From Rossellomorea orangium (GTDB lineage Bacteria > Bacillota > Bacilli > Bacillales > Bacillaceae_B): a DNA stretch of 64,000 bases. The stretch lies in contig NZ_JAHWGH010000018.1 of the NCBI RefSeq assembly GCF_019334305.1, positions 320,009 to 384,008 of the forward strand, in the 5' to 3' direction. The position numbers were made by a program, and so were the translations under genes. Positions 54,854 to 57,719 of this stretch are shown piece after piece (positions within the stretch are counted from its first letter, which is position 1; the number at the start of each line of letters is the position of its first letter). The notes under the pieces were generated by a model, which saw only the letters and a program-made list of their open reading frames with translations, had not been told where the DNA came from and did not search any database.

Positions 54854-55828
54854 TTATAACCACACCTCGATATAGATTCCCAATACGGCAAACAGCAATC
54901 CCACCGTCCAAAAAGTAACGACGACACGCCACTCACTCCATCCGACCAATTCATAATGATGATGCAAAGGGCTCATCTTGAAGATCCGCTTTCCTGTTGT
55001 TTTAAAGGATGCGACCTGTAAGATCACGGAAAGAGTTTCGATTACGAAAACCCCTCCAATAAGGATTAGAATGATTTCAAGCTTGGTCAGGATGGCAATC
55101 GCTGCGATCGCCCCACCCAGTGCAAGAGATCCAGTATCCCCCATGAATACTTTGGCAGGATGGGCATTAAATACGAGAAAGCCCAGGACCGCTCCCACAA
55201 CCGCCACACCGAAGATGGCAACATCATATTGCGATTGGCTCCATGCAAGCACGGCCAGTGCTCCAAAGGCAATCGCACTCGTTCCGGATACGAGTCCGTC
55301 CAGACCATCCGTCAAGTTGACAGCGTTTGAGAATCCGACCAGCCAAAAGATGATAAATACACAGTAAAACCATCCTAATTCAATGGAAAAATCCGTTAAT
55401 GGAATCGACACCGTGGTCGGAAAGTCATTCTGCTTAAAGATGAGATAAAAAATAACCGAAATAATAATTTGACCGAGCAGTTTCTGCTTGGAAGTCAATC
55501 CCAAATTCCGTTTCATCACGACTTTAATAAAGTCGTCCAAAAATCCCAATAATCCGAAACCTACGGTGACCATGATCATTAAATATGTCTCGGGGCCAGG
55601 ATCAGAGTATTTCCCAGTCATGACAAATGTTGTAATGACAATCGAAACCAGGAACGCGATCCCGCCCATCGTCGGTGTTCCGGTCTTTTTCTGGTGTGAC
55701 TGCGGACCTTCATCCCGGATGCTTTGTCCAAACTTCAATCTTCTGAGGAAAGGAATAAACACAGGGGCAAGCAGTACGGTTATTAAAAATGACATGATTA
55801 TCGTAAAAAGTATCACTTGTTCCATCAT
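54854..55828 (-). CDS. mraY: Phospho-N-acetylmuramoyl-pentapeptide transferase
   Basis: The 324-residue ten-helix enzyme transfers phospho-MurNAc-pentapeptide to undecaprenyl phosphate to make lipid I. Seen are [20 protein letters not shown] (the catalytic DD), [15 protein letters not shown] and the histidine motif [11 protein letters not shown]. It begins two bases after the MurF-like ORF ends. Confidence 0.97.
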
Positions 55829-55830
55829 GG

Positions 55831-56262
55831 CTATTCCCCTCCTTTTTCTTTTGTCGTATCCAGCTCATGAGAGGATTCGTTCAAGGATAAATCCACTGCT
55901 TGATAATTAGATTCATTAGTAAATATAAACTTCGTCATAATTTCCCACTTTTCTTGATTGTAATTTTGTTTGTAATTCTCTAGTAAGTGTACATAAGCCA
56001 GGTATACATCATCAACCATAAATAATGGAAAGTGATTCGGAACATAAGATGGAATGGGATCATCTTTCCGCCATAGGGAAGCGATCGCACCCATTTCAAT
56101 ACTCTTTAAAAGATCGATTTCATCACTAAAAGGGACATAAAGTCCCTTCTCCATCGTCATACTAGTTGAATTAGAAACTATTAAAAACGTAAATCCCGGC
56201 AAGTGAATTCCTTTGGTATCTGGAAACAATCTCTTCACTTCATCATAAAAAAGCATTTTCAC
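55831..56262 (-). CDS. Stand-alone MurF N-terminal-domain-like protein
   Basis: The 143-residue product resembles only the substrate-binding N-terminal domain of Mur[33 protein letters not shown], then [16 protein letters not shown], aligned with the FVPL...GAVAVLW...ILVDDTL region of MurF. There is no P-loop GTNGKTT and no central or C-terminal domain; after about residue 115 the sequence is unrelated and acidic. It overlaps the murE end by 4 bases and abuts mraY, at the position that murF holds in many bacteria. Catalysis by itself is unlikely; it may be a remnant domain with a new role or a decaying gene. Confidence 0.75.
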
Positions 56263-57719
56263 ATCCCCTTGATGAAGTTTCTCGCAACTTCCCGATCATC
56301 AAAATCGAACACATCGTTTCCTATGATCTGATACGTTTCATGACCCTTCCCGGCAATCAACACCACATCTCCAGGTTGTGCAAGATTCAACGCTTCCTTG
56401 ATCGCTTCTTTACGATCAATGATCAATTGGTATTGTTTACCGAACACTCCCGATTCCATATCTTTTAATATACTCACGGGATCCTCTGTCCTGGGATTAT
56501 CAGAGGTGAAAATCGCATAATCTCCGTAATCACACGCGATTTCCGCCATAATAGGCCTTTTGATCCTATCCCTGTCCCCTCCACAACCGACGACTACTAT
56601 CACTTTGCCGTTTGTGATCGTCCGGGTGGTTTCGAGTACGTTTTTCAATCCATCCGGGGTATGTGCATAATCAATGATGACTGAAAAAGGCTGACCCTCA
56701 GAAACCGTTTCAAATCGCCCCCTGACCCCTTTTGCCTTCTCAAGGCTCCTTATACTATCTTCGATCGGTATGCCCGCAGCGAACGCTGTAGCTAAGGCAG
56801 CAAGTGCATTGTAAACATTGAATTTCCCAGCATACTTTAAAACCATCTCCCATTCCCCGAATGGGGACACAAGTGTGAATACGGACTCGGTTGCCCCGAG
56901 CACCAAATCCTTAGCAAAAAAGTCAGCCGAAGAATGGAGACCATATGTAAGTACGTGGGCGGCTGTGGACCGGATAAAGTAATCTGCTGCTTCGTCATCC
57001 TTATTAATAATGGCGTATTTAGGGGATTTCTTAAAATAAGTATTCCCTAATTGGGAAAACAATAAGCCTTTCGCGTTCCGATAATCATCCATGGACTTGT
57101 GATAATCCAGGTGATCCTGGGAGAGGTTTGTAAACACTGCGATATCATAGTCGCAGCCGTGTACACGCCCTTGATCCAGTGCATGGGAAGAAACCTCCAT
57201 GATGGCGGATCGCACCCCTTTATCACAAAATCGCCTAAATGTCCGTTGAAGGGTTAAACTGTCAGGAGTCGTGTTATGGCTGACTTCCAACTCATCACCC
57301 ACTTTAATATGCATGGTTCCGATTAAACCGGTCTTCATCCCGCTCTGGGTGAAAACCTGATCAATTAGATGGGTGGTCGTGGTTTTTCCGTTTGTTCCTG
57401 TCACCCCGACCAAGAGAAGCTGGTGGGAGGGTTGTTTATAGAAATAGTCTGCTAATATGGCCATCGCTTTCTTCGTATCAGGAACAATAATGACGGGAAT
57501 GTCTGCATCAAGTGTCCTCTCTGCAAGGATGGCTGCTGCACCATTTTTTTCGGCCACCCCGGAAAGCGAGTGGCTATCAACCTCTAATCCATTGATACAG
57601 ATAAATAAATCACCATTCTTCACTTTTTTATGGTGGTTCGCGATGTTTGAAATAGCTGGATTCCCTTCACCCTGTACTGAGAAAAACGGTAGTACTTCCA
57701 GCAAAGTGTGCAATCTCAT
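56259..57719 (-). CDS. murE: UDP-N-acetylmuramoyl-L-alanyl-D-glutamate--2,6-diaminopimelate ligase
   Basis: The 486-residue ligase adds the third stem-peptide residue. [15 protein letters not shown] is near residue 107, then EVSSHAL, and DNPRTEDP (about 406) is the motif that selects meso-diaminopimelate, so the wall is meso-DAP type. The start is the first ATG after GTGAGGAG. Confidence 0.97.
   Translation of the reverse strand: MRLHTLLEVLPFFSVQGEGNPAISNIANHHKKVKNGDLFICINGLEVDSHSLSGVAEKNGAAAILAERTLDADIPVIIVPDTKKAMAILADYFYKQPSHQLLLVGVTGTNGKTTTTHLIDQVFTQSGMKTGLIGTMHIKVGDELEVSHNTTPDSLTLQRTFRRFCDKGVRSAIMEVSSHALDQGRVHGCDYDIAVFTNLSQDHLDYHKSMDDYRNAKGLLFSQLGNTYFKKSPKYAIINKDDEAADYFIRSTAAHVLTYGLHSSADFFAKDLVLGATESVFTLVSPFGEWEMVLKYAGKFNVYNALAALATAFAAGIPIEDSIRSLEKAKGVRGRFETVSEGQPFSVIIDYAHTPDGLKNVLETTRTITNGKVIVVVGCGGDRDRIKRPIMAEIACDYGDYAIFTSDNPRTEDPVSILKDMESGVFGKQYQLIIDRKEAIKEALNLAQPGDVVLIAGKGHETYQIIGNDVFDFDDREVARNFIKGM

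Follow-up and report, generated by a model that had tools for sequence, protein, structure and literature searches.

A lone MurF-like N-terminal domain between murE and mraY in Rossellomorea orangium and its likely descent from a division-cluster MurF

Gene structure and fold

The 64,000-nt stretch of Rossellomorea orangium DNA analysed here (the window) carries a division and cell-wall cluster of mraZ, mraW, a DivIC-type septum gene (presumably ftsL), two penicillin-binding protein genes, murE, a short lone gene, mraY, murD, an ftsW/spoVE gene and divIB. Features of the lone gene and its neighbours are listed in Table 1.

Table 1. Features of the murE–mraY region (positions within the window).
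Feature	Position	Strand	Remarks
Lone MurF N-domain gene (most likely extent)	55831..56256	minus	141 aa + stop, ATG at 56256
N-domain proper	55942..56256	minus	residues 1-105; fold of the MurF/MurE N-terminal type; under purifying selection
Variable C-terminal tail	55834..55941	minus	residues 106-141, weakly constrained
Ribosome-binding site AAGGGG of lone gene	56265..56270	minus	within murE 3' end, 8 nt before ATG
mraY ribosome site AAAAGGAGGGG	55836..55846	minus	inside end of lone gene
murE, upstream neighbour	56259..57719	minus	
mraY, downstream neighbour	54854..55828	minus	

The open reading frame as first listed spans 55831-56262 on the minus strand, and its GTG start at 56262 would overlap murE. 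AAGGGG lies only 2 nt before this GTG, compared with 8 nt before the ATG, and the ATG is the start conserved across the genus. Judged by this spacing and conservation, the gene most likely comprises 141 codons and begins 2 nt after murE. The sequence-only reading had reported an overlap with murE and good ribosome spacing; the overlap belongs to the GTG-started frame only, and the spacing is good for the ATG but not for the GTG noted there. Similar purine-rich stretches precede the start of the lone gene in named relatives.

Structure prediction, together with structure and profile comparison, assigned the first ~100 residues of the lone protein to the MurF/MurE N-terminal fold; pLDDT was below 50 at residues 117-137. 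Foldseek on its own gave no match passing E 0.001, so the fold claim rests on the VIA second look and the profile comparison. The structure comparison included 8f5d, a MurE-MurF complex structure. Neither Pfam nor NCBIfam yielded a family for the lone protein (up to E 10), 26 fragment members matched no Mur family, with PF01225 Mur_ligase absent from matches up to E 1, and a PDB sequence search gave matches only at E ≥0.11, none a Mur ligase. The protein lacks the P-loop G-S-N-G-K-T and both the middle (Mur_ligase_M) and C-terminal (Mur_ligase_C) domains. The gene is thus, as first read, a MurF-like N-terminal domain standing alone in the murE-mraY slot.

Occurrence, descent and other MurF genes

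A protein search detected the lone gene in 35 of 36 genus genomes, with open frames in all 35 and with murE before and mraY after it at every one of these loci; the single genome without a match is an assembly 84% complete. A scan of named genomes, seeded with the motif PNHFP[LV]F, gave 63 loci, all ordered murE, lone gene, mraY, murD; 25 of them are genus genomes again, and the 38 outside the genus include Neobacillus, Cytobacillus, Heyndrickxia, Robertmurraya, Fredinandcohnia, Litchfieldia and Anoxybacillus. These loci are contained in profile A3. One record, titled Pseudomonas sp. ISL-84 (L105), carries the same Bacillus-type cluster and is probably a mislabelled assembly. In other genera (L112 2971-3417 and relatives), the tail often bears a conserved T-Y-D-I-A-V-M motif, mostly missing in this genus.

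Across the class, a survey at E 1e-15 matched 14 of 398 genomes, all of them in this order; weaker relatives would escape this threshold. At E 0.001, 374 of 397 genomes of the order matched, fragments and full MurFs being mixed, so this figure is not a fragment count. We used 100 murE-mraY intervals hand-picked from 150 genomes (46 family codes, one to four per code). They comprised 39 full MurFs, 19 intact and two broken lone domains, three MurFs without a P-loop (one of them, L200, overlooked by the fragment profile), 35 intervals without a MurF-like frame, one contig break and one frameshifted murE. The contig break (L163), the broken fragments (L211, L242) and the frameshifted murE (L217) were assigned by hand. 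Intact fragments occurred across 13 family codes, and the dN/dS values given below for the genus likewise speak for a retained gene. The fragment is split in G256 and G137, and the tail alone remains in G081. In the murE-mraY stretch of the last (L242), no N-domain frame was found and tail-like residues precede mraY. At L217 (G067), murE is seemingly split by a frameshift in the assembly, possibly an assembly error. On the murE tree, the state "nothing" between murE and mraY needs 16 changes, which suggests that the gene was probably lost many times in the order.

Comparison with MurFs indicates where the fragment came from. A three-residue insertion before the F-P strand is present in 40/40 fragments, in 40/40 division-cluster MurFs (39 in full, one with a one-residue gap) and in 14/14 P-loop-less MurFs, and in 0/30 MurFs encoded elsewhere, defined as MurFs away from mraY (adjacency to the D-Ala-D-Ala ligase gene, ddl, was checked in the window's genome alone). 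In profile comparison, fragments scored a median of 69 bits against division-cluster MurFs, 38.5 against MurFs encoded elsewhere and 5.4 against MurE; the proposed likeness to the MurF N-domain is upheld by both fold and profile, with the division-cluster type favoured. In an N-domain tree of 119 columns, all 40 fragments fell on one side of a branch (support 100/99) and adjoined a division-cluster MurF, L162_F (97/83); this tree leaves out L163, L211, L217 and L242 and includes the first piece of one split fragment (L245). An AU test did not reject the tree joining fragments with MurFs encoded elsewhere (p = 0.30), so the descent claim is carried by the insertion and gene position. On these grounds, the lone gene is very likely a shrunken descendant of the murF that many families of the order have between murE and mraY.

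The window's genome contains a full-length catalytic MurF gene away from the cluster, after ddl, as a search for such a gene revealed. Of the 150 genomes, 140 had a MurF over the curated cut-off, and no genome in the place table of these 150 had two. All 21 surveyed fragment genomes (19 intact, two broken) had an over-cut-off MurF away from mraY, the places being read by hand.

Further Mur-like genes were observed. The window's genome encodes a second murE-like gene (L002 964-2445, contig C10), 43% identical to the cluster murE and scoring 491 bits with TIGR01085. A genus relative, G010, has an additional 462-aa MurF-like protein with a P-loop, below the murF cut-off (L303 524-1909); G006 and G009 likewise show a second match. 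MurF homologues of 528-548 aa occur at L295 15-1601, L296 101-1705, L297, L298, L300, L301 and L302. By eye, a hydrophobic, seemingly membrane-spanning stretch replaces the soluble N-domain in all seven, and Pfam found Mur_ligase_M and _C only in the two submitted to it. In 13 of 14 genomes lacking an over-cut-off MurF, the top MurF-like match has this length; in the fourteenth, G416, the second-ranked match does.

Other families keep larger MurF remnants. In family f26, 13 of 15 genomes have a 304-463-aa MurF homologue without a P-loop between murE and mraY; of the remaining two, G212 keeps the P-loop and G380 was assigned to neither class. An over-cut-off MurF is encoded elsewhere in seven of the 13; in the other six, the MurF-like genes are all more distant ones. 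Two f36 genomes (G241, G284) have a 313-aa homologue from which the P-loop and C-terminal part are missing, and two others (G070, G109) a full MurF enzyme. From the missing P-loop we infer that the f26 and f36 proteins are dead as enzymes. On the murE tree the P-loop-less MurFs need three changes and lie apart from the lone-domain rows, the third change arising from the pairing of G060 and G212 inside f26. Catalysis was thus probably lost in at least three lineages, an N-domain-bearing protein being left in place in some descendants each time. As a general explanation, supply of an N-domain by P-loop-less MurFs to the membrane-type MurF was rejected: in four f35 and two f14 genomes a membrane-type MurF occurs together with an empty murE-mraY interval.

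The coexistence of an over-cut-off MurF in all 21 fragment genomes, and the N-domain fold common to both proteins, would suit a role in regulation, with the lone protein as a subunit that joins MurE or the MurF encoded elsewhere and adjusts how active that enzyme is. However, P-loop-less MurFs occur in eight genomes without an over-cut-off MurF (G060, G103, G162, G187, G361, G416, G241, G284), where they can do without such a partner, and we consider this role quite unlikely.

Selection and conserved residues

Selection was measured within the genus. Counted from the ATG, N-domain dN/dS had a median of 0.19 (range 0.04-0.32) over 17 genus pairs; one of 18 pairs, with dS <0.05, was excluded from the dN/dS medians. 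Across 13 disjoint genus pairs, the N-domain accumulated 151.8 nonsynonymous changes per 3199.2 sites against 204.2 synonymous per 895.7 (pN/pS 0.21). The pooled pN/pS of the tail was 0.72 (16 of 18 pairs having a tail, last five codons omitted). Whole-frame dN/dS medians were 0.31 for the lone gene (stop-to-stop frames, including codons inside murE), 0.077 for murE and 0.032 for mraY. In the bin of 55-60% MurE identity, fragments were 34.1% identical, compared with 43.5% for the N-domain of full MurFs. The lone gene therefore evolves faster than murE, mraY and the full-MurF N-domain at equal MurE distance.

This fast evolution, the 35 of 100 intervals without a MurF-like frame and the split or tail-only copies in G256, G137 and G081 are what would be expected of a functionless relic that decays slowly, its N-terminal part surviving by chance and being lost lineage by lineage. 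However, the near-universal presence of intact copies in the genus, the low N-domain pN/pS and the fragment-specific conserved residues described below argue against such decay, and an unconstrained frame would not be expected to remain open across many families. No pseudogene signs (stops, frameshifts, neutral substitution) were found in the 35 matched genus genomes. The relic explanation thus appears unlikely; the suggestion of a decaying gene fails for this genus and applies to the relatives with damaged copies.

The two ends of the gene raise another alternative. In the window both junctions, with murE and with mraY, are 2 nt long, and the last codons of the lone gene (KGGE) also serve mraY as its ribosome site. 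The frame could act as a translational relay, handing ribosomes from murE to mraY and supplying the ribosome site of mraY with its end, the protein being incidental; the weakly constrained tail agrees with this. However, selection acts on the amino acids of the first 105 residues, and 13 of the 35 empty intervals have mraY ~2-26 nt behind murE with nothing between. A mere relay is accordingly improbable, and we think it likely that the lone gene functions at the protein level.

The conserved MurF N-domain motifs D-S/T-R and D-G-H are expected to contact the nucleotide. D-S/T-R was found in 0/40 fragments, 39/40 division-cluster MurFs, 25/30 MurFs encoded elsewhere and 0/14 P-loop-less MurFs, and D-G-H (with close variants) in 0/40, 40/40, 30/30 and 11/14, respectively. 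The loop around the D-G-H site is shortened in 39/40 fragments. These losses disfavour the binding of UDP-MurNAc substrate offered by the sequence-only reading, and a lone protein that binds UDP-MurNAc-peptide as a buffer, sensor or hand-over protein is very improbable. In favour of such binding, domain 1 of S. aureus MurE, the counterpart of the fragment, is reported to hold the uridine site; however, most of the MurE pocket is described in domain 2, absent from the fragment (PMC3829189). The P-loop-less MurFs that keep a D-G-H-type motif could still bind.

Residues G56, A57, W62, P69, P73 and F76 of the fold core are invariant or nearly so among fragments. K37, N74 and H75 (141-aa numbering; 44, 81 and 82 when seven residues before the start are counted) are 72-88% conserved in the 40 fragments and unlike the commonest MurF residue. 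This figure may be somewhat high, the loci having been found beside mraY or by the motif-seeded profile A3, and the MurF consensus opposite N74 is itself weak (T, 28%). Motif loss, a retained fold core and a new consensus fit a protein kept for its surface, for neither catalysis nor substrate binding.

Proposed role and comparison with known systems

Conservation of the fragment across many related families, with the enzyme work done by another gene, suggests a second, non-catalytic job. The idea of an ancient remnant put to a new use agrees with the insertion common with division-cluster MurFs, the monophyly of fragments (100/99), the purifying selection on the N-domain and the full-length murF elsewhere. 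Catalysis belongs to another MurF gene, beside ddl in this genome, and the cluster copy is no longer an enzyme. We propose that the lone N-domain would keep contacts once made by the MurF N-domain with its neighbours, MraY, MurE and perhaps MurG or MreB, and may help to join the Mur ligases with the MraY step as a docking piece or scaffold. As a whole, a shrunken murF descendant kept as a non-catalytic contact protein is our best explanation, held with slightly less than even confidence. Within it, scaffolding of MurE/MraY would be the best role; that it serves the hand-over of UDP-MurNAc-peptide to lipid I synthesis in this way is a tentative proposal.

The proposed contact draws on whole MurF in other bacteria. 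Published work reports a MurF-MraY two-hybrid interaction and MurF-MreB and MurF-MurG contacts (PMC6420597, PMC4929429), and assigns MurF to a shape complex in Helicobacter pylori (PMC9507126). These contacts come from experiments on the complete MurF of other phyla rather than on its N-domain. MurD, MurE and MurF reportedly failed to bind one another unless MreB or MurG was present (PMC4929429), which argues against a direct MurE contact of the fragment. The absence or breakage of the gene in many relatives, its fast evolution and the weakly constrained tail also count against our explanation.

More speculatively, the division-cluster murF slot may have a structural job apart from catalysis: after another MurF took over, the N-domain would have been retained to organise the coupling of MurE with MraY, and this on at least three occasions within one order (lone-domain clade, f26 and the two f36 genomes). 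If true, dead MurFs would be a recurrent pseudoenzyme class in cell-wall synthesis. A working assembly of cytoplasmic Mur enzymes with MraY has been proposed, its make-up being described as unsettled (PMC6420597). A natural single-domain remnant, perhaps kept only for a non-catalytic MurF N-domain job, would offer a clean handle on this assembly, and the partners of so small a protein should be its contacts.

We found no description of a lone or dead MurF in titles and abstract openings of the open-access literature, subscription journals lying mostly outside this search. Mur ligase domains and pseudoenzymes are known as kinds; the single-domain, syntenic and repeatedly retained form is new. 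The lone protein resembles the MurF ligase (TIGR01143; UDP-MurNAc-tripeptide:D-Ala-D-Ala ligase) in its N-domain fold, its position between murE and mraY and the three-residue insertion of division-cluster type. It differs in having no middle or C-terminal domain, P-loop, D-S/T-R or D-G-H, and is not an enzyme. PF01225 Mur_ligase, the N-terminal domain of Mur ligases, is alike in fold by structure comparison, but its Pfam model is unmatched by the 26 fragments searched. Chain Q of 8r6s, a plastid-encoded RNA polymerase, which we take to be the MurE-like subunit PAP11, is unlike the lone protein: it is long, multi-domain, plastid and outside a division cluster. The Bordetella MurE-MurF fusion shows MurE and MurF acting as one MurG-binding molecule (PMC6420597); in contrast to the lone protein, both of its halves are catalytic and fused.
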